A DNA stretch of 46,982 nt from a virus, in IMG/VR virus record IMGVR_UViG_3300031566_000077, positions 1 to 46,982 of that record, one strand, 5' to 3'. The notes under the pieces are model-generated. The model was given only the letters and a program-made list of their open reading frames with translations. It ran no database searches and had not been told where the DNA came from. The stretch's first letter is position 1. Every line of letters begins with the position of its first letter. A program made the translations under genes and the position numbers. Of this stretch, positions 1,929 to 43,570 are shown piece after piece.

Positions 1929-2672
1929 TTATGTTTCCTCTCTGGTCATTATTAGGTACAGCGAGTTATATTTCGGACCGAAGCGGATCAACATAGGTGG
2001 GTCAGGCTCAACGAATATCTTAACTTCCCCGCTTACTGTACTAAATATCTCCTTTACCCCATGACCAAAACAAGCAATCATCGCCTTCCTTATATCCTGT
2101 TTTTCTGGAGTAACCTTAGTCACGAAAGTATTCCGCCCTTTCTTCACGCGAAGGCGAATTGATTTGTCACGATCGACCTCGATGTAGTAGATATGTTCAT
2201 CCAAGATATCAGCATCGCCGACCAACGACGCCAACTCCTGCGAATCGAGAGTAAAACGGTTAGTTTTATATTTGAGTTTCAAGGTAGGGGTCTTGACGAA
2301 ATCTTTCCCCACCGATATTGCCCCCGCCTTTGAATAACTGTCGATCGCCTTTTTATCCACCGCTTCGAAAGTCCCGATTTTATTTTTTCGCTTTACTCTT
2401 ATCAACTTCTTGTCAGTCGAGATCTCCACGGTCCCATCGAATCGAGAAAGAATCTTTAGAAACACGGCAATATTCCCGAGAACCAACTCGCCAGCCGAGA
2501 TAACCTTTGCTTCCTTGGCGATGTGAAAGTAAATAGACTTTGCGATATCGAGTCCTGTGGCGACTAGCCGGCCTTTTTCTACTGCGATTACGCAGTCAAA
2601 GACCAACCCGTTTAAGTGAACCTTAGATAGAAATTCCTGGAATTCTTTCGCGTCGATTCTAAACTTAGCCAT
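1929..2672 (-). CDS. Probable PCNA/gp45-like DNA sliding clamp
   Basis: The 247-residue length matches PCNA and T4 gp45-type clamps (about 230-260 aa) and not bacterial DnaN (about 370 aa). The N-terminal part has a DCVIAVEKGRLVATGLD segment like the first clamp repeat. The C-terminus VEPDPPMLIRFGPKYNSLYL followed by IMTR resembles the last strands of PCNA, where a P-x-R/K-F element precedes the closing beta strand. The gene lies in a block with the DNA polymerase and overlaps the upstream 173-aa gene by eight bases. Family recognition is by fold-like pattern only, so another beta-rich processivity or repair factor is possible. If correct, it is an unusual partner for a family-C polymerase. 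Confidence 0.5.
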   Translation of the reverse strand: MAKFRIDAKEFQEFLSKVHLNGLVFDCVIAVEKGRLVATGLDIAKSIYFHIAKEAKVISAGELVLGNIAVFLKILSRFDGTVEISTDKKLIRVKRKNKIGTFEAVDKKAIDSYSKAGAISVGKDFVKTPTLKLKYKTNRFTLDSQELASLVGDADILDEHIYYIEVDRDKSIRLRVKKGRNTFVTKVTPEKQDIRKAMIACFGHGVKEIFSTVSGEVKIFVEPDPPMLIRFGPKYNSLYLIMTREET

Positions 2673-3186
2673 TGGTATGCCCCCATTCTGCAGACAAAGA
2701 CTTCGCGGCCGTCTCTAGTGCGTCAAGTAATTTATTGATTCTGTGCATAGCGTTCGTGTAGATTTCCCTTCGCTCCATGGCGGCGGATTCAAGGTGGCGT
2801 TCTTTCCTAACCATTGAATCCGCTTTGGTTGATGCCATAGTATCCGTTATCTTATCGCCGCTTTCCGCAGCCTTTCTTTTTATTTCAACAAATATCTTTG
2901 AACGCTTCCCCTTTCTATTTCCCTCTGTTCTTAAAAAATCACCTTGAGCCTTTCCAGAATGAACTGCTAAGAATACGTTGAGGGCAGCGAGCTGTACGTG
3001 ATCCCTATTAAGTTCGCTTCGTTTATACTTCGATACCATGTCAGCGATTCCAAGCCCGGTATATCTATTTACGATTTTCAGAATACCATGGAGGAATTCG
3101 TACTCGTCAGGCGAGTTCTGGAAAATGCTCCAGTCCACCTTAGTATTCGGCTTCTCGATTAGGCGAGACTTTTTCTTGTCCGACAT
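2665..3186 (-). CDS. Hypothetical protein (173 aa) between polymerase and clamp genes
   Basis: Unrecognised. The N-terminus is basic (MSDKKKSRLIEKPNTKVDW). A middle helical segment ends in HVQLAALNVFLAVHSGKAQG, and the C-terminal third is rich in Arg, Glu and Ala (MVRKERHLESAAMERREIY), predicting helices or a short coiled coil. No metal-binding or nucleotide-binding motif was seen. It overlaps the 3' end of dnaE-C by 28 bases and the clamp-like gene by 8. It therefore sits in the replication operon and may be a replication accessory factor, but that is context only. Confidence 0.65.
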   Translation of the reverse strand: MSDKKKSRLIEKPNTKVDWSIFQNSPDEYEFLHGILKIVNRYTGLGIADMVSKYKRSELNRDHVQLAALNVFLAVHSGKAQGDFLRTEGNRKGKRSKIFVEIKRKAAESGDKITDTMASTKADSMVRKERHLESAAMERREIYTNAMHRINKLLDALETAAKSLSAEWGHTNG

Positions 3187-4193
3187 TTCTCGTTCTCCAC
3201 AAGGGAATCAATCTTCTTAGTAATGTCAATAATCTTATCCTTGCCCCCTTGACATAGGACTCGATTATTACCCATACTCCGCCCACTAACAAAAATAATA
3301 CTATAAGGTTTCAAAGTCGAAGCGTACCGCTTATCCGCTTCGGCATCTAAGAATATGGTGATACCGCCACGATGATCCTGGACCTTTAGGACCTTCGTTG
3401 ACTTGCCTGACATTGGAGTATCTATTTCTATAATAACCCCAGCGACTCCAGCCCGCTCCCACCTATTAAAGTCGGCCAACTGAACTGATGTAATACAATA
3501 CTGTTTCATTAAAAAATCTCTTACCTTATCCTCGAAAAAAGGATGTAGTAAAATAAACCCGAAAGCCTCGACTGCATCCTCTACGAAACTCTGCTCAAGA
3601 TCAAAAACCTGTTCCTTACGCTGACTATTAAATAACCGTTTTATAGAGTGTCTATCTCCCAGCGCATCGAAGGCCCCTGACTGAATAAGCGATACTATTT
3701 TTCCCTTATGAATCTTTCCACTTATCCGGTCAAGGAAATCGGTAAAAGAAGAGAATGGTCGCTTGGATAGGATCTCCTCGGCGCTTGGCCCTTTTATTCC
3801 CTTTATTTTGGAGAGCCCGAAACGAATTGCGTGACCTTTGTTTTCCAAGGTGAAGCCGGAGCCTGACTTATTGATGTCGGGAGGAATGACCCGTAACTGA
3901 TATCGTCTTGCTTCATTAATATAGTTATATATCTTGTTGAGTTCAGACCCACGTTTCTTATCCTTCTTCACTCCAGTAGCAGTATTAGAAAGTAAACTGG
4001 CAAAGAACTGTCCAGGATAATAGTTCTTGAGATATAGAACCTGGAAAAATAAGAAAGCGTAACTGACAGCGTGGCTATTTGATACACAAATATCATTGGC
4101 GTAATAATTATGGAAACCACTATCTATTTCTAAATCTAAAGTCTCTTCTTCTCCAATATATGATATATCTACAATTTCTTCAAACTTGTTCAT
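3159..4193 (-). CDS. dnaE: DNA polymerase III alpha, C-terminal fragment with C-intein at its N-terminus
   Basis: Residues 1-39 are the C-terminal half of a split intein: block F LDLEIDSGFHNYYAND and the terminal ICVSN (Asn39). Residue 40 is Ser, the +1 nucleophile. Residues 40-344 (305 aa) are DnaE C-extein, starting SHAVSYAFLFFQVLYLKNYY. This continues exactly the FNK-SH motif left open at the end of dnaE-N. It then covers the fingers end, helix-hairpin-helix (FGLSKIKGIKGPSAEEIL) and OB-fold region (VAGVIIEIDTPMSGKS). The penultimate intein residue is Ser instead of the usual His. ATG follows a perfect GGAGG. It overlaps the endonuclease stop by 14 bases. Trans-splicing with dnaE-N should give a polymerase of about 1043 aa. 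Confidence 0.9.
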   Translation of the reverse strand: MNKFEEIVDISYIGEEETLDLEIDSGFHNYYANDICVSNSHAVSYAFLFFQVLYLKNYYPGQFFASLLSNTATGVKKDKKRGSELNKIYNYINEARRYQLRVIPPDINKSGSGFTLENKGHAIRFGLSKIKGIKGPSAEEILSKRPFSSFTDFLDRISGKIHKGKIVSLIQSGAFDALGDRHSIKRLFNSQRKEQVFDLEQSFVEDAVEAFGFILLHPFFEDKVRDFLMKQYCITSVQLADFNRWERAGVAGVIIEIDTPMSGKSTKVLKVQDHRGGITIFLDAEADKRYASTLKPYSIIFVSGRSMGNNRVLCQGGKDKIIDITKKIDSLVENEKCRTRKSLA

Positions 4194-5106
4194 CTGTACC
4201 TCCGTATTTTTTTAACAACAAATCCTTAAACTTCTTTTCATATTTATATGCATCTTGATAAGTCTTTTTATGACACCTTAAACATAAGGTTATGCCATTA
4301 TCCAAATCATGCCTATGATTTGGATACTTTGCCTTAGGTTTAATATGATGGGCCTCTACATATTTTTTTTTGCCACAAACAAGACATGTATATAAATCTC
4401 TGAATAAAATTTGGTCTCTCCATCTTATATCATCCCAAACTATTCTTTTTCTATCTTTTATTCTTTTTAAGTCTCCATCGCCACCTTTAGATATGCTGAT
4501 TTTTATTTTTGTTTTATCAGAATGCTTACATCCTGTATGCCCATCAAAATTTCTTTCCTTAGCGCTTTTAGAAAGGTTCTTTTTATGCTCTTCTGTAAGT
4601 CTTTTGCCCTTCTTTTTATCACTTACCTTTTTTACAGAACTATTAGTTTCCTTGGTTAGTCCCTTATTCCAAGGATCTTTATTATACATAGGATTGTTTT
4701 TACCTAATCTATTACTTGCCATTGTTTTTATTATATTGTTATTATGTTTATTTTTACCTTTATTCCAAACATATGATTTACCAAACTTTCCAAATCTAAT
4801 ATACCCACAACAACTATAAGTTAAATATTCACCCGTTATTAAGCATCTTGGAACATCATAGTATTCATCTAAAACTTCAAGTATATTTTTACCATACTTT
4901 TCTTGATAGTAGACGTCTGCAATTTCTGAAATATAAAATACTTTTTTTATAGGACGTTGCATTTTAAGGCGTTTTTTATATCTTTCTGTAGGTATCTTTT
5001 TCCATGTATAATAATCTTTCTCAAAATTGGCATATAAAACTATAGTTTTCTTTCCAGAATATAGTACCTCATGGATTCCATATTTATCTAATTTTAATTT
5101 TTTCAT
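4180..5106 (-). CDS. HNH homing endonuclease with NUMOD3-like repeats, located between split dnaE halves
   Basis: A 308-residue free-standing endonuclease. The C-terminal HNH/zinc domain is clear: CLVCGKKKYVEAHHIKPKAK (C241, C244, H253, H254), Asn270, and LCLRCHK (C275, C278, H279). Upstream are NUMOD3-like DNA-binding repeats: GKNNPMYNKDPWNKGLT, GKRLTEEHKKNLSKSA and HSDKTKIKISISKGG. It starts inside the 3' end of dnaE-N::IntN (23-base overlap) and ends inside the start of IntC::dnaE-C (14-base overlap). The gene is visibly more AT-rich and Lys/Asn-rich than its neighbours, as expected for a mobile endonuclease. The likely role is homing into intein-less or endonuclease-less dnaE alleles; an inactive or domesticated state is not excluded. 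Confidence 0.93.
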   Translation of the reverse strand: MKKLKLDKYGIHEVLYSGKKTIVLYANFEKDYYTWKKIPTERYKKRLKMQRPIKKVFYISEIADVYYQEKYGKNILEVLDEYYDVPRCLITGEYLTYSCCGYIRFGKFGKSYVWNKGKNKHNNNIIKTMASNRLGKNNPMYNKDPWNKGLTKETNSSVKKVSDKKKGKRLTEEHKKNLSKSAKERNFDGHTGCKHSDKTKIKISISKGGDGDLKRIKDRKRIVWDDIRWRDQILFRDLYTCLVCGKKKYVEAHHIKPKAKYPNHRHDLDNGITLCLRCHKKTYQDAYKYEKKFKDLLLKKYGGTDEQV

Positions 5107-7582
5107 GCTTTTCTATTGCTACTCCTAGTGACATCATACCATTTTCAGTTAAAACTTCATGGTCTAAGCTTGCTTCTAAAGTTTTCCCTGATTTAGTTTT
5201 AATCCTATAGACCTTTCTTTTACCATTTTTATGCAAACCTTTCACGCGATTAAACTCGTCTTCTTTTGTTGTTTGATTATAGCATAAAACTTTCTCATCA
5301 TTTCGTACATCCATTATTTTAATTTTTCCCCTTTTTTCTGTTCTAATATAATGATTTTCTGTAATACATTTATTAAACGAATATTTAGTAAATTCTTTGA
5401 TAGTCTTCCAAAGTTGCGAAGCTGATTCGTGATCCATAACTTTATGACTTCGTCTAAAAAATTCATTTTGAAACTTTATTCGTAAACCTTTATCAGTATC
5501 AAATATCTTTTTAGCTGCCATTTTTCTAATATTTTCTGCTTCAACCATTGAATAATTAGCAACTTTATTTAATATCTGTATTACCTGTTCTTGGTAAACC
5601 AATACTCCTCTAGTTTCTTCAAGTATCTCGTTAATATCATCGTTGTCAATCCCCATTCCTTCCTGTGTTATAAACCTTTGAACTGCGCTACTACCAAGCG
5701 GACCTGGACGATTGATAGCATTAAGCGCGGCTATTTCCTGAAAGTTCTTTGGTCCGACCTTTTTTAATAATGAAATAGCAGAATCAGTCTCAAACTGAAA
5801 CATCCCGACCGTATGTCCCAGTCGTGCTTCCTTCATTAGTTTTTTATCAGCAAGGTCGATAGTCCATATCTTCTTAGCAAGGCTTTTACCTGTCGTTTCC
5901 TTTACTAAATCCAAGGTGTCCGAAATAATCGAGCAGGTATTTAATCCCAGTATATCTAATTTAAGCAGCCCTACTTCGCTCAATTCCCTACCCCTTAGTC
6001 CCTCCGAATAGGCCGAGACCACTTGGCCCTTGACTCTTTGAAGTGGACAATATTTGTAAACTGCCTTTGGAGCTATTATCGTTCCGCATGGATGCACTCC
6101 GATATTCCTGATAAGACCGGATATTTTCTTTGCCAGGTTTATAAGGCTCCGATGTTCCTTCCAGAAATCTTTAAGTCGCCCCGACAAGTTTTTATATGCA
6201 TCATCTATTCCGCCGCTCTTGTATATTTCATCTGCCAACTCATTTATCGGACGAGCGGCCAGTTTGAAAACCCGGCCAATATCACGAATCGCCCCTACTG
6301 ATCCGAATGTCCCAAATGTAATAACTCGAGCGACCTTATCATCGCCATATCTTTGTCGAATATAATTAAACACTCGCTCCCTTTTATTTGCATCGAAGTC
6401 AAGATCAATGTCCGGCATATCACATCTGCTCTCATTTAAAAAACGTTCAAAGATCAGTCCATGCTCTATCGGATCAACCTTGGTAATCCCGAGGACTAAT
6501 GAAACCAGGGAACCAGCAACAGAGCCCCTGGCTGGACCAACAAATATATTATTCTTCTTACACCAGCTAACCAAGTCATCAACAATTAGAAAATAGTCAT
6601 GGAATTTTAGACGTTCTATTACATCGAGTTCACGTTTTAACCGGTTAGCATATTTCTTCTTTTTCATAAAGCCGAGAACCTTGGCCTTGTAAATAACTTC
6701 CGATGAAAACTCGAAAGGCTCAAGTCCCATGTCCGGTATGTGAAATTTCCCGGTAGGTATTACCAGTGAACATTTTTCTGCTGCTTCCTCGGCGTTACGA
6801 ATTACCTTCCTAAAAGTCTTTTTATCAAGCGCAGTCTTCCAGTCCTTACTTTGTCGCCATATATCCTGGGCAGTCATAAGAGAAAGACTTCGAGCAGTAT
6901 ACCTTACTTTATCGACCTGGTCAATTGTCAAACGATCACGGACTGCCAGTATAAAATCCTGGATGTAAACGTCGTCTGGACTTACATAGTGCGAGTCGAG
7001 GGTAAGAATAACCTTGACGCCATGCTTTTTTGCCAACTTCAATAACCATCGGTTTACATTGGCTTGTATATCTATTTCGTTAAGTTGAATCTCAACATAA
7101 AAATCATCCTCAAACCGATCCTTCCAACGCATTATTTCCCTTGCTGCTTCTTCTTCTCTGCCGAATAGTTTTCCAAGTATTCCCCCCATGCAAGCAGTTG
7201 AAACAATCAATCCGTCACCGTTTTCAAAAACCATCTTAGTAGTAGTCCTTGGTCGATAATAAAAACCATCGACGTGAGCCTCTGAAACAATCTTAAGTAG
7301 ATTTCTATATCCATGAATATTTTTTGCTAATAAAACAATATGCCTATACTCTCCCTTTCTTTCAGGCGAATCATCCAAGTACATTTCGGTCCCGACTATC
7401 GGGTTCACTCCCTGTTTTTTACACTCTAAATAAAATTCCAATGTTCCCGATAAAGTTCCGTGATCCGTAATAGCCAATGAAGACATGTCCAACGTCTTAG
7501 CCCTGGTGATCAACGCTTCTATATCAGCGCAGCCATCCAAAACACTGTGGGTTGTATGCTGATGCAGGTTCGTGAAAGTCAT
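5084..7582 (-). CDS. dnaE: DNA polymerase III alpha, N-terminal fragment fused to N-intein
   Basis: Family-C replicative polymerase, N-terminal 738 residues plus a 94-residue N-intein. The PHP domain begins NLHQHTTHSVLDG (H7, H9) with ITDHG (D40, H41) and a later LDSHYV, so metal residues look retained, consistent with an active proofreading PHP. Polymerase motifs: GPARGSVAGSLVSL (residues 349-362), PDIDLDFD with catalytic D393 and D395, and LKLDILGL with D543. The extein ends KYSFNK (738). The intein starts CITENHYIRT (Cys739, block A) and includes KTLEASLDHEVLTENG (block B, His of the TxxH position), then stops at KIKIR. The continuing DnaE sequence is in the gene at 3159-4193. Confidence 0.95.
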   Translation of the reverse strand: MTFTNLHQHTTHSVLDGCADIEALITRAKTLDMSSLAITDHGTLSGTLEFYLECKKQGVNPIVGTEMYLDDSPERKGEYRHIVLLAKNIHGYRNLLKIVSEAHVDGFYYRPRTTTKMVFENGDGLIVSTACMGGILGKLFGREEEAAREIMRWKDRFEDDFYVEIQLNEIDIQANVNRWLLKLAKKHGVKVILTLDSHYVSPDDVYIQDFILAVRDRLTIDQVDKVRYTARSLSLMTAQDIWRQSKDWKTALDKKTFRKVIRNAEEAAEKCSLVIPTGKFHIPDMGLEPFEFSSEVIYKAKVLGFMKKKKYANRLKRELDVIERLKFHDYFLIVDDLVSWCKKNNIFVGPARGSVAGSLVSLVLGITKVDPIEHGLIFERFLNESRCDMPDIDLDFDANKRERVFNYIRQRYGDDKVARVITFGTFGSVGAIRDIGRVFKLAARPINELADEIYKSGGIDDAYKNLSGRLKDFWKEHRSLINLAKKISGLIRNIGVHPCGTIIAPKAVYKYCPLQRVKGQVVSAYSEGLRGRELSEVGLLKLDILGLNTCSIISDTLDLVKETTGKSLAKKIWTIDLADKKLMKEARLGHTVGMFQFETDSAISLLKKVGPKNFQEIAALNAINRPGPLGSSAVQRFITQEGMGIDNDDINEILEETRGVLVYQEQVIQILNKVANYSMVEAENIRKMAAKKIFDTDKGLRIKFQNEFFRRSHKVMDHESASQLWKTIKEFTKYSFNKCITENHYIRTEKRGKIKIMDVRNDEKVLCYNQTTKEDEFNRVKGLHKNGKRKVYRIKTKSGKTLEASLDHEVLTENGMMSLGVAIEKHEKIKIR

Positions 7583-9797: not shown

Positions 9798-10346
9798 TTA
9801 GAAATCGTCGTCGTCGTCTTTCTCTTCCTCCTCGTCGTCGTCGTCTTCCTCCTCGTCGTCGTCGTCTTCCTCTTCCTCCTCGTCGTCGTCGTCTTCCTCG
9901 AATTCCTCGTCGTCGTCGTCCTTGGCCTTCTTTTTCTTCCCTTTTCCCTTGGCCGCAGGTTTTTCCTTCTTTGCTTTCTTTCCCTTTTTCTTCTTGGGCG
10001 CTTCCTCTTCCTCCTCCTCTTCTTCTTCCTCCTCGTCGTCGTCGTCGAATTCCTCGTCGACTTCCTTCTTCTCCTTCTTCCCCTTCCCCTTCTTTTTCTT
10101 GCCCTTCCCCTTGGTCTCGTCGCGCTCAGCCTTGGCTTCCTCCCGGAGTACCTTGACCTTATCGTCAGCGATCCGACGAAGCTCCTGCAGTTTCTTCCGA
10201 AGTTCCGAGAGCACCTTCTTGGCGGTCTGTCCCGCCTTGTAATCGCCCTCGAGCAGGTCGGTGATTTGGTCCCGGACGAAGAGCGCTGCCGTTGCGGCTG
10301 ATCCCGCCATGGTCAGAAGTTTTGGTCCCTTCTTTGCCTTTGCCAT
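9798..10346 (-). CDS. Low-complexity Lys/Asp/Glu (polyampholyte) protein, 182 aa
   Basis: The start is set at MAKAKKGPKLL, which follows GAAAGGAAGAAAGAACG. Residues 1-90 look folded and helical (AGSAATAALFVRDQITDLLE, KKVLSELRKKLQELRRIADD). The rest alternates Lys-rich blocks (KGKGKKKKGKGKKEKK) with Asp/Glu runs, including about ten consecutive Glu, and ends DDDDDF. The tail will be disordered and extremely charged, comparable in style to histone-H1-like or nucleoid proteins but acidic at the end. The codon runs (gtc/gac, cct/agg triplets) make a long antiparallel open frame on the plus strand, which is only its complement. Function unknown; DNA or protein condensation is a guess. Confidence 0.7.
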   Translation of the reverse strand: MAKAKKGPKLLTMAGSAATAALFVRDQITDLLEGDYKAGQTAKKVLSELRKKLQELRRIADDKVKVLREEAKAERDETKGKGKKKKGKGKKEKKEVDEEFDDDDEEEEEEEEEEEAPKKKKGKKAKKEKPAAKGKGKKKKAKDDDDEEFEEDDDDEEEEEDDDDEEEDDDDEEEEKDDDDDF

Positions 10347-10422
10347 CGTTCTTTCTTCCTTTCGCGAAAGTCGGTTGAAAAGAAATGTTGTCAACGATAA
10401 CCCGACCCCATCGGAGATCGGG

Positions 10423-18899: not shown

Positions 18900-18952
18900 A
18901 GTGTTCTCCTAAGATTAGATAAAGACAAAGAAAGAAAGAAAGATGGAAACTA

Positions 18953-18997
18953 AGTCTTAGCCTTAGTCTTAGCCTTAGTCTATAGACTTAGACTAAG
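18953..18997. repeat. 12-bp direct repeats and palindrome between UDG and helicase genes
   Basis: AGTCTTAGCCTT occurs twice in tandem (18953-18964, 18965-18976). It is followed by AGTC and the perfect palindrome AGTCTATAGACT (18977-18988), then TAGACTAAG. The last part is an inverted copy of the repeat core, so the block can form an extended hairpin or bind several protein copies. It sits in the 139-bp gap between the helicase stop and the UDG start, next to long A/T and purine-pyrimidine runs. An iteron-like origin or operator is possible. Confidence 0.55.
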
Positions 18998-19038
18998 ATT
19001 TCATATTTAATCTTTTATTTTCTTTTCATTTCTTATTC

Positions 19039-20409
19039 TTATTTTCTTTTCTTATTCTTTCTTTTCATTATATTTCTTTTTATTCGAGAATCATTTATAC
19101 GAATAATTCCAAAGTTAGGAAGTATTTCTATATACTCTCGGTCTTTACCTTCGCGTATTTTCAAGAATTGAATACGGGCACGAGGCGGAACTCGGAGTCT
19201 CATGGCACGAGTTTGAACTATGGCGACCAGGACGTCGGCATTGTGAAGAAGGGCCTGTTTATTAATAGCGATATCAGATGCGGTTATTTCTTCTTTGTCA
19301 TAGGCCTCCGGCTTCAACTGGCCGGCCGTAATGACTGGGATTTTCCTTTTCAGTCCAATGTTTTTACATTCAACTAGAATTTGTCCCTGTGGCTGCCAAT
19401 CCAAAGAAAGAGTCTGCCGACCACTAAGAGAATTAGGAACCATATTATTTACATAGTCGATAAAAATAATGTCAGGCTCAAACCCTTTCTCCTGGAGTTT
19501 CTGGTCAATAGCAGCAGCTGAGCAATTACCTCCGGTCATGCCGATAACAATGAGTTGGTTTTTAGATAATTGTTTTATAGAGACTTTCCATTTCTCAAGA
19601 TCAATAGAACGCATAAGGGTAGGTTTTTTGAATTTCTTGTGACGGACTTCCGATATACGGGAGTCCATTCGGAAGGCTACCTGACGGGGCGTCATTTCAT
19701 TAGTAATATAGGCCACTTTCTTTCCTTGCTCAACTGCGATGTAAACTGCCTGGTCCTGCATAGTAATTGATTTCCCACCCGAGGTTTGAGAAACGAATAT
19801 AATTAAGTCCCCTGGATTATAACCAGAGGTTTCATCATCAAATCTATCATCTATACCGGATTCAATCCCGCGGTGAGCCTCCCCCGATTTTATCTGTGCT
19901 TTTATTTGTTTTAACCGCTCCCTGAAGTCTCTTCTTACATCAACAAATTCAACTTCTTTTCCGATCTTTATTTGATGTTGGGTAATCGCATCAAATAGAT
20001 AATCCTTTACCATAAAAGGATTTCCGTTCTGTTTGAAAATATCCTTAGCAGTCAATAGCATTTTTTGGATATCCCGCGAGGCTTCATGTACTAATAGTTC
20101 TTCTACCAGATATTGTATAGCCTTGGGTTCTATTTTCAGTCGCGTAATTGATTTGACGAGATTCCCGATCTTACGTTTATGCGGACTATCGGATTCATCA
20201 GCCAGGGTCTTTGCTATCTGTGGATTTATAGGCGCAAAATATCGCGTGTTATAATCCCGAATAAGCCTAAACAGCTCTTGCGTAGCAGGAGTAGTAAAGG
20301 TCGAGACGTTAAGGCTCGAAATGGTTTCATCGCGGTTAAACTTCTTTGTCTTAAGCATGATCCCCAGTAACTCTTTTTCCTTGTCGATGTCCCGGTAACG
20401 AATTGGCAT
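19039..20409 (-). CDS. dnaB: DnaB-like replicative helicase
   Basis: 456 residues, the normal size for DnaB. The N-terminal helical domain begins IDKEKELLGIMLKTKKF and contains the TPATQELFRLI segment. The RecA-like C-terminal domain has Walker A VSQTSGGKS (207-214, with the DnaB-type absence of the first Gly), ITNEMTPRQVAFRM (the DnaB LEMS region) and Walker B DIIFIDYVNNM (D318). The AGQLKPEA segment matches the DnaB motif with a Gln after Ala-Gly. ATG is preceded by AAAGGAGAACCGT. It is the first gene after a strong terminator, so it opens the replication operon with UDG and primase. Confidence 0.92.
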   Translation of the reverse strand: MPIRYRDIDKEKELLGIMLKTKKFNRDETISSLNVSTFTTPATQELFRLIRDYNTRYFAPINPQIAKTLADESDSPHKRKIGNLVKSITRLKIEPKAIQYLVEELLVHEASRDIQKMLLTAKDIFKQNGNPFMVKDYLFDAITQHQIKIGKEVEFVDVRRDFRERLKQIKAQIKSGEAHRGIESGIDDRFDDETSGYNPGDLIIFVSQTSGGKSITMQDQAVYIAVEQGKKVAYITNEMTPRQVAFRMDSRISEVRHKKFKKPTLMRSIDLEKWKVSIKQLSKNQLIVIGMTGGNCSAAAIDQKLQEKGFEPDIIFIDYVNNMVPNSLSGRQTLSLDWQPQGQILVECKNIGLKRKIPVITAGQLKPEAYDKEEITASDIAINKQALLHNADVLVAIVQTRAMRLRVPPRARIQFLKIREGKDREYIEILPNFGIIRINDSRIKRNIMKRKNKKRK

Positions 20410-41887: not shown

Positions 41888-42427
41888 TTAGTAGTCTTCG
41901 TCTTCTTCGTCGTCTTCGGTCCAGCCCTCGTTGTCTTCCTCGGGCTCTTCCTCGACTACTTTCTTCTTCTTTTTCTTGCCCGACTTTTCCCCTTTCTTCT
42001 TTTTCTTCTTGGGTCTTTCTTCCTCCTCGCCGTCGTCGTCGGGTTCCGTCAGTTCCTCCTCTTCTTCTACTTCTTCTTCCACTGCCTTTTTCTTTTTCTT
42101 TTTCTTGTCCCCGGTGAGAACTTCGGTCGATCCCGGGAAAGACGTAGGAAGAGGAGTAGGCGGTTCGGTGCCGGAATAGCTCAGTGGCGTAACCCCGGTC
42201 GACTTCGCCCCACCCAGGGGAGTCCCGCTCGCATCAGTTTCTTCGATATCGTTTTTCATCCTGAACATCTCGATATCGCAAGCCAGAGTGACCCGGGCAG
42301 GCTCCTTTTTTGAAAAGGAGTAATGGTGTCCGACCCGCCCGAAGCAAGCATAAGACGAAGCAGACTTCGGAATGAAAAAAGCCACTTGCTCTTCCTTCCC
42401 CCGCATTTCGCGATCCTGGTTCGCCAT
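41888..42427 (-). CDS. Low-complexity acidic/basic head-region protein (179 aa)
   Basis: The start MANQDREMRGKEEQVAFFIP follows GAAGGGGAAGGAA. Residues 1-100 look folded (VAFFIPKSASSYACFGRVGH, EPARVTLACDIEMFRMKNDI). The tail alternates KKKKKKK and Glu/Asp blocks and ends WTEDDEEDEDY. This resembles the 182-aa protein at 9798 in style, although the heads differ. It lies between the repeat protein and the adaptor gene, so it may be packaged or be a head-assembly factor. Function unknown. Confidence 0.65.
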   Translation of the reverse strand: MANQDREMRGKEEQVAFFIPKSASSYACFGRVGHHYSFSKKEPARVTLACDIEMFRMKNDIEETDASGTPLGGAKSTGVTPLSYSGTEPPTPLPTSFPGSTEVLTGDKKKKKKKAVEEEVEEEEELTEPDDDGEEEERPKKKKKKGEKSGKKKKKKVVEEEPEEDNEGWTEDDEEDEDY

Positions 42428-42457
42428 TTCCTTCCCCTTCAAATAGAAGATTCTTGC

Positions 42458-43570
42458 TTACCCCTTCACGAGTCCGATGGTCACTTCAGCGCCCGTACCG
42501 AGAACCGCGACCTCGCCGGCGGTTCCAAGCACAGACCCTGCATTGCCAGCATCGGCCGCCAAGTGAGTGGCGGATTTCGCAGCATGCGTCTCGTAGGCGG
42601 CTTTCCACTCTGCGACCACGGCAATGATATCCTCGTACTCGGTCGCGGTGCCTGCGACGGCGGTGGTGTCCGCATCAAGGTGATCGTCAGTGCTTGTCCC
42701 GTGCGTGTTGATCGTCGCTTTCAGGCCGTTGATAAGAGCCACGACAGTCGCCTCGGTTGTCGCCGCAGCCGTAACGTTTGCCACGCCCGCAGTCGGGTGA
42801 ACTCCCAGGTGAGCGATATGGGCGTTCAAGTCCGTTTGAAATTCGTTGGTTTCCAAATACAGCGCTGTAATTTGGATACCAGCGTTTGGACTCGTGATAG
42901 TATTTGTCCCATCGGCCAGACCATGAACGGGACCCGTGGTCAGGATGATGTGCGCGTTGAACCCGGTGGTGTTCTTGATCTCGTTGATGAGCGTGACGAC
43001 ACTATCCCAGTCCGTGGCGTTCGCCGCAACGATTGTGTTGGTAGTGTCGGCATTGGCGTGCTCGCCTCCGGCCGTCAGAATCCGATGCGCCTCGTACATC
43101 GCCTTCAAATCATTGACGAGCAGTACAGCCTCCGCTTCCGTTGTAGCCGGGCTGGTAGCTGTGATAACGTTCGTTGCATCCGCGGCCCCGTGAACGCCAC
43201 CCGCCGTAAGGATTCGATGAGCCTCGTAATCCAGCACGGCCTCGTTCAGGATTGTGAGGATGTCGGCGACGGGGTCCGTTGCCACCGGAGATCCGATAGG
43301 ATTGTCCACGTCCGCCGCCATGTGAACGCCCCCGGCTCCCCGGTGGGCGTTGTACTGACCAAGCCCGGCGTCCATGGCGGCCTGGATCGCTTTCTGTCTC
43401 ACGTTGATGAGATCCAAGTTCGCTTGGATCGCTTTCTGCCTCACGTTGATCGCGGTGAAGTCGTCGGCGATCTGACGCAAGGCCTCGGTGAGGGTCGGAG
43501 ACGGATGGTTATCTCTCGGGGCTAAACCGGCCCCACCATCGAGGAACAACTCCTCTATGATCGTGGTCAT
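42458..43570 (-). CDS. Head-region protein made of about seven 40-residue His-containing repeats
   Basis: 370 residues. After a helical N-terminal part with a tandem INVRQKAIQA (residues 41-50 and 55-64), about seven repeats run from residue 73 to 350 with the pattern (Y/F/L/I)-x-A/T-H...H-x-x-A-D-x-x-N. Examples are YEAHRILTAGGVHGAADATN and FNAHIILTTGPVHGLADGTN, each followed by Thr-rich sequence and a helix such as LLVNDLKAM. Two His and one Asp recur at fixed positions, which could bind metal. Encoded directly after the major capsid gene, so a decoration protein or head fibre is likely. No known family recognised. Confidence 0.65.
   Translation of the reverse strand: MTTIIEELFLDGGAGLAPRDNHPSPTLTEALRQIADDFTAINVRQKAIQANLDLINVRQKAIQAAMDAGLGQYNAHRGAGGVHMAADVDNPIGSPVATDPVADILTILNEAVLDYEAHRILTAGGVHGAADATNVITATSPATTEAEAVLLVNDLKAMYEAHRILTAGGEHANADTTNTIVAANATDWDSVVTLINEIKNTTGFNAHIILTTGPVHGLADGTNTITSPNAGIQITALYLETNEFQTDLNAHIAHLGVHPTAGVANVTAAATTEATVVALINGLKATINTHGTSTDDHLDADTTAVAGTATEYEDIIAVVAEWKAAYETHAAKSATHLAADAGNAGSVLGTAGEVAVLGTGAEVTIGLVKG

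Follow-up and report, generated by a model that had tools for sequence, protein, structure and literature searches.

In phage Aeh1, the gene nrdA is split by an HNH gene, and in cyanobacteria a split intein interrupts DnaE at the junction AEY/CFNKSH (the slash marks the insertion point). Genes for enzymes of DNA metabolism, reportedly described by Dassa et al. in 2009, are said to be broken by a split intein together with an endonuclease gene, in that case one for an EDxHD/Vsr-like enzyme. The locus described here lies in the virus contig IMGVR_UViG_3300031566_000077 (46,982 bases, completeness not established), the whole of which is called the window below. Its dnaE gene, which encodes a family-C DNA polymerase, is most probably (with a probability of roughly 0.82) fractured by a split intein and a free-standing chimeric homing endonuclease, with polymerase halves that would be trans-spliced and an intein that would have been acquired horizontally. 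The break falls at the codons FNK/SH, the cyanobacterial junction being four residues upstream of this site.

As in Aeh1, an HNH gene stands between the halves of an essential phage gene, but Aeh1 nrdA has no intein and, hence, no ligation. The cyanobacterial inteins of Npu and Ssp are also split DnaE inteins with similar proportions of the N-terminal and C-terminal intein parts (IntN and IntC) and are detectable by profile; by contrast, they lack an endonuclease, interrupt a cellular host gene and have their parts far apart. With the fractured genes of 2009, the locus shares the split intein and the free-standing endonuclease gene between the halves, and 17 of its relatives have the same EDxHD/Vsr-like type. 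It differs in that an HNH domain replaces the EDxHD domain on a common N-terminal module. Citing passages of PMC6892783 and PMC12350094 already refer to fractured genes that combine split inteins with Vsr-like enzymes, a type of gene that an initial annotation of the window had also named. In Pseudomonas phage MIJ3, the HNH gene orf154 separates the two parts of a split PolB intein (PMC6892783), which is again an HNH gene within the split intein of a phage replicative polymerase; nevertheless, that polymerase belongs to family B, the intein is another one, and a domain swap is not among the features described in the relevant passage of PMC6892783. Aes123 PolB1 and related phage PolB inteins (PMC12707363; PDB 9hth) are likewise split, belong to phage replicative polymerases and have a similar fold, but they are cysteine-less and their polymerases are of family B. 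In the Rhodococcus phages NiceHouse and Francesca (MT521992, PP978770), an intein occupies the same FNK/S residue of DnaE, but it is contiguous, 150-156 amino acids (aa) long and without an endonuclease. Finally, a ribonucleotide reductase gene split by a homing endonuclease without an intein is known from work cited in PMC10448857. In the open-access literature searched, there was no earlier report of a fractured phage DnaE at FNK/SH, nor of EDxHD giving way to HNH on a shared module. What appears to be new beyond the initial annotation is the nuclease-domain swap and a mismatch of intein and extein identity that points to horizontal spread.

The minus strand of the window carries three overlapping open reading frames (ORFs) at 5084-7582, 4180-5106 and 3159-4193, each in a different frame. 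Their features are as follows.

5084-7582, minus strand: gene for the N-terminal part of DnaE with IntN (P0001), 832 aa, extein 1-738 followed by a 94-aa intein
5369-7582, minus strand: N-extein, DnaE residues 1-738, ending YSFNK, with PHP, polymerase and finger domains
5369-5648, no strand assigned: AT-rich N-extein stretch adjoining the insert, guanine-plus-cytosine (GC) content 0.286, possible co-conversion tract
5087-5368, minus strand: IntN, 94 aa, Cys1 followed by ITENHY..KIKIR, with block B ..SLDHEV..; TIGR01445
5084-5086, minus strand: stop codon of the IntN gene
4180-5106, minus strand: free-standing endonuclease gene (P0002), 308 aa, overlapping both neighbouring genes
4498-5028, minus strand: endonuclease residues 27-203, a putative targeting module with homology to the EDxHD endonucleases at the related fractured DnaE loci L025, L023 and L024
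4261-4386, minus strand: HNH catalytic domain, residues 241-282, CxxC..AHHI..NGITLC..CH; PF01844 at 4.8e-9 and several PHROG HNH families
4198-4203, minus strand: Shine-Dalgarno GGAGGT, 4 nucleotides (nt) 5' of the IntC ATG
3159-4193, minus strand: gene for IntC with the C-terminal part of DnaE (P0003), 344 aa, 39-aa MNKFEE..YYANDICVSN and then SHAVSYAF
4077-4193, minus strand: IntC, 39 aa, blocks F and G, ending VSN with Ser at +1, from motifs and profile
3159-4076, minus strand: C-extein, from SHAV to the stop, 305 aa, with HHH_6 and OB-fold

In effect, the locus has the sequence features of a fractured gene: the gene for one enzyme is present as two adjacent, collinear halves, each half carries an intein part with splicing motifs, and an endonuclease gene with its own start lies between them. 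The TIGR00594 profile is covered from position 1 to 750 in P0001 and from 746 to 885 in P0003, the extein parts being collinear; since the two ranges meet at the break, no DnaE residue is lost there. The endonuclease gene overlaps the IntN gene by 23 nt (5084-5106) and the IntC gene by 14 nt (4180-4193), and the 39-residue C-intein of the third gene ends in ..HNYYANDICVSN, after which DnaE resumes with SHAV. The Shine-Dalgarno of the IntC gene reaches -10.8 kcal/mol, against a random mean of -3.0 (standard deviation 2.7). The arrangement proposed in the initial annotation is thereby upheld: the ORFs and TIGR01445 give a dnaE-N that ends in FNK and continues into a 94-aa N-intein with a Cys start and blocks A and B, the third ORF and the TIGR00594 match at 746-885 give the 39-aa C-intein followed by SHAV, the frames do overlap by 23 and 14 bases, the match to TIGR00594 and the PHP, polymerase and finger domains place the enzyme in family C, and the gene between the halves is a 308-aa ORF with its own start and an HNH domain. 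A search with P0001 as a single protein matched just one distant DnaE.

The two intein parts were compared with known inteins, and their assignment as a split intein stood. The profile TIGR01445 (intein N-terminal region) scores 29.3 bits on P0001 and 33.9 bits on the joined intein, for a cut-off of 24.5. A profile built from eight joined DnaE inteins, with the window sequence at its head, spans solved inteins end to end: Spl DnaX is matched at 1.9e-15 (positions 3-133) and gp41-1 at 2.1e-15 (9-131), with further matches to Npu DnaE (5e-12) and NrdJ-1 (5e-10). The IntN alignment itself is too variable to serve as a search query. The window intein has Cys1, the block-B His, blocks F and G, a terminal Asn and Ser at +1, as expected of an intein; C1, H70 (block B), D114 and H122 (block F) and N133 are invariant in the aligned set, and the +1 Ser is followed by His in every aligned C-extein. 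The terminal Ser-Asn is also invariant across the aligned inteins, and the penultimate Ser in place of His is thus a trait of the family. Locus L022 contains a contiguous intein with the same 133 positions (94 + 39), whose AlphaFold model has a predicted local distance difference test score (pLDDT) of 95.8 and, by Foldseek, resembles the gp41-1, Ssp DnaB and Npu DnaE inteins with template modelling scores of 0.85-0.90. Through this model and the matches of the window-headed profile, the window intein is predicted to have the HINT fold. In the L022 model, residue 94, at which the window intein is split, is situated in the loop that precedes the last strands, the usual site of the endonuclease in inteins according to a passage of PMC12707363.

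Taken together, these features suggest how the locus would operate. A mobile element, composed of the split intein and the endonuclease gene, would have been inserted in the phage dnaE at the highly conserved FNK/SH codons, and the polymerase halves would now be made as two proteins, each with half an intein. The intein halves would pair and fold into one HINT domain, and the exteins would be spliced into one DnaE of about 1043 residues, as the complete splicing motifs and their conservation in the family suggest. Most likely, dnaE alleles that lack the intein are cut at the junction by the HNH protein, and repair of the cut would copy the element into them. Indirect signs of such homing are the mismatch between intein and extein similarity and the AT-rich insert. 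No second DnaE and no PolA was found among the window proteins searched. It is reasonable to think that polymerase activity depends on trans-splicing. The unspliced halves could, in principle, associate instead.

Relatives were found through a DNA pattern for the C-intein junction and an alignment-based search of IMG/VR; about 30 of them, in IMG/VR contigs and Rhodococcus phages, have an intein at the FNK/SH site of DnaE. The table compiled from them holds 31 loci, including the window; L053 and L060 were omitted because their junctions were not resolved automatically, and L059 because its IntC match lies outside DnaE. Contiguous mini-inteins are present in 8 of the 31 loci, among them NiceHouse and Francesca, while four (L031, L039, L044 and L051) have a split intein without a nuclease. 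In 17/31, the split intein is accompanied by a free-standing endonuclease of the EDxHD/Vsr-like class, assigned by profile (E below 1e-5) in 13 and only by motif or a weak Pfam match in L033, L041, L048 and L058. One further form, with NUMOD4-HNH_3 fused in frame to the end of IntN and IntC in a separate overlapping gene, occurs in two contigs from different metagenomes (L042, 3665-5986, which equals L018, 144-2465). The free-standing HNH form is confined to the window (1/31). In L022 and L029, the same intein is unbroken, at 133 aa (94 + 39), and has no nuclease; IntN measures exactly 94 aa in the window, L023, L024, L025 and L031, and IntC 37-41 aa in most loci. Because the same split recurs at the same residue in many independent phage contigs, the arrangement is neither chance nor an assembly accident, and the artefact joining two loci that the initial annotation had allowed for can be set aside. 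On this comparison, FNK/SH is a recurrent fracture hotspot, and the successive steps towards a fractured gene are on view there: contiguous intein, split intein, split intein with EDxHD, split intein with HNH, and HNH fused to IntN. The inteins at this site also offer new split-intein pairs. Small unrelated ORFs (74, 76 and 162 aa) lie in the gap between the intein halves in L031 (5488-5937), where they stand in the place of the endonuclease, and in L030 (5208-5971). A Nocardiaceae metagenome-assembled genome (L102) gave the one match in a genome contig, an IntC-like stretch of uncertain context.

The window endonuclease had been described as an HNH/NUMOD3 enzyme. Its HNH domain is recognised by Pfam (PF01844, 4.8e-9, 36.7 bits for a cut-off of 21.4), while NUMOD3 stays below the cut-off (12.7 against 20.4 bits), although the region aligns with NUMOD3-bearing relatives. 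Residues 34-200 of P0002 (query 1-203) share 47% identity with the N-terminal region of the endonuclease from L025 (E 5.7e-47), with lower identities for L023 (42%) and L024 (35%). By contrast, residues 204-308 have no similarity to any endonuclease of the relatives. The C-terminal domains of L023-L025 match an EDxHD profile derived from the other loci (hhalign 6e-27; hmm 1e-18 to 1e-28), which in PDB finds Vsr, weakly, and the mobile-intron protein 3r3p; the window endonuclease does not match this profile and has HNH instead. A search with the N-terminal module recovers the family of L023-L025 and, less strongly, other loci of EDxHD type. Since this module is otherwise found with EDxHD domains, the HNH form is the exception. 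By these alignments, the window endonuclease is a chimera produced by a nuclease-domain swap, with the N-terminal ~200 residues of the EDxHD/Vsr-like family joined to HNH. Most simply, an EDxHD enzyme would have retained its N-terminal half and gained a new nuclease; exchange in the reverse direction would be less parsimonious. The N-terminal half presumably sets the target, by analogy with NUMOD-bearing homing enzymes. A tree of the NUMOD3 region by itself gave no resolved branching. The L025 endonuclease has no match among deposited phages, and its type is therefore known here from metagenomic contigs only. An AlphaFold model of the window endonuclease was poor (pLDDT 52.5), probably as a result of alignment rows with another catalytic domain, and was not used. 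The combination had also been called uncommon. This stands for the site, where HNH occurs in one of 18 loci with a free-standing endonuclease and the other 17 are EDxHD/Vsr-like, but the combination is not unprecedented, given MIJ3 and L018/L042. If the chimera works as proposed, it would be a natural experiment in which a homing enzyme has kept its address and exchanged its blade, and both blade versions could be compared directly at one codon pair of one gene.

The inteins of L022-L025, L029 and L031 are 50-60% identical to the window intein, while the DnaE exteins are only 29-35% identical; in effect, the window exteins are no closer to this set than to any other phage examined. For the other pairs with an extein identity of 25-40%, mean intein identity is 36.9% (standard deviation 7.6). 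Within L022-L031, inteins (54-72%) and exteins (52-72%) have diverged about equally. The window intein clusters with the L022-L031 set (support 87/99), and in the extein tree that set is a clade of its own (100/100), with the window outside. These values indicate that the intein came to this DnaE lineage horizontally, from phages whose polymerases are only ~30% identical. The GC content of the insert is 0.29, against ~0.42 in the neighbouring dnaE. Inserts are AT-richer than their surroundings in most relatives too, and the low GC is therefore partly a property of the element. The 280 nt of N-extein beside the insert have a GC content of 0.286, lower than 99.7% of other 280-nt windows, and would be compatible with co-conversion, a possible explanation, but the protein encoded by this flank is no more similar to L022-L031 than the remainder of the extein, and protein identity points to no donor.

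Several observations weigh against this account of the locus. Splicing, cleavage and homing are themselves inferred from sequence; the start codon of the endonuclease has a Shine-Dalgarno of only moderate strength; another polymerase may be encoded beyond this fragment of the virus genome; block B of the window intein has Ser at the usual Thr (SLDH rather than TLDH); and the DNA around the site is no more similar between the window and L025 than between the window and other loci, so that junction identity does not set window-like targets apart. In addition, a few other pairs combine 55-61% intein identity with 34-40% extein identity, and a tree that unites the exteins of the window with those of L022-L031 is not rejected by approximately unbiased (AU) tests (p 0.25). 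Thus, the claim of horizontal transfer rests on the identity contrast and not on topology. The AU result and the similar contrast in some other pairs would fit vertical descent, in which the intein was inherited with this DnaE and evolved more slowly than the extein. Nevertheless, this seems unlikely, as the window pairs give 50-60% against 29-35% where the L022-L031 set gives 54-72% against 52-72%, and searches with capsid, helicase and sheath-like proteins revealed no kinship with the L022-L031 contigs beyond weak matches.

The HNH gene could also be a passenger or relic and not the homing enzyme of the split intein. Its nuclease domain is not the EDxHD domain that the relatives have, and the splits of L031, L039, L044 and L051 persist without a nuclease. 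This appears improbable, however, given that the first ~170 residues of the protein are of the family known from this site, that its gene overlaps each of the halves and that no HNH catalytic residue is lost. It is quite improbable that the halves no longer splice and associate non-covalently, as in Aeh1 NrdA, with the intein pieces as remnants. The Ser for the block-B Thr and the penultimate Ser where His is usual could be taken as decay; on the other hand, Cys1, the block-B His, the block-F Asp and His, the terminal Asn and Ser+1 are all retained, the Ser-Asn ending is shared by the family, and neither the reading frames nor the start signals are damaged. That errors of sequencing or assembly have broken up a contiguous intein with an endonuclease domain in frame can hardly be credited: the three frames do overlap tightly and the IMG/VR contig comes without reads, but two separate frameshifts would be required, the IntC gene has its own ATG and the Shine-Dalgarno of -10.8 kcal/mol, the split with separate ATGs recurs at the same residue in unrelated contigs, and the exteins continue without loss or duplication.

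In several relatives, DnaE is broken further. When pieces are counted as separate ORFs covering the TIGR00594 profile, DnaE is in three pieces each in L025, L024, L032 and L040, in four in L031 and L039, and in five in L045. The breaks each have their own split intein, and often their own EDxHD gene, and are located at several conserved motifs, at about TIGR00594 positions 362, 397, 505, 678 and 750. One piece of L031 (2688-3182) contributes no more than ~35 residues of DnaE, flanked by a C-intein and an N-intein, and the first DnaE piece of L039 is ~16 kb away. By these counts, the window represents the least complex type in a family that reaches five pieces. Such relatives pose the question of how the pieces of a replicative polymerase come together soon enough for the phage to replicate. 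A broader view, to which we would give about even odds, is that intein fracture has struck the family-C polymerase genes of uncultured phages repeatedly, making them a hotspot where one targeting module is re-armed with EDxHD or HNH and the split intein spreads between unrelated phages, with extremes of up to five pieces and four different trans-splicing reactions. At the upstream DnaE split of L032, an ORF (2492-3463) looks LAGLIDADG-like by eye; it may represent a third nuclease class in fractured DnaE genes.

Other observations concern further genes. In genes for the terminase large subunit (TerL) with an intein, the TerL frame stays open through an HNH gene nested in the +2 frame (L010, 6728-7336; L011, 3574-4131; L013, 1455-2012, reverse-complemented; L017, 4836-5393). 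When the nested HNH gene was shuffled synonymously, the TerL frame remained open in just 1.3%, 0.9% and 0.02% of cases, and both overlapping frames therefore seem to be under selection. In the window, FolE-, QueE- and QueD-like genes, identified from their translations, stand in a row beside dnaE (190-1656), and probably serve 7-deazaguanine (preQ0-type) synthesis for DNA modification. An AT-rich intergenic stretch (18900-19040), with CTTAGTCTTAGC repeats and an inverted repeat, precedes a DnaB-like helicase gene and is a possible origin or regulatory site. Two highly charged, low-complexity proteins with long Asp/Glu and Lys runs are encoded at 9798-10394 and 41888-42442, and a predicted structural protein with repeated AHRILTAGGVHGAAD-like units at 42458-43570.

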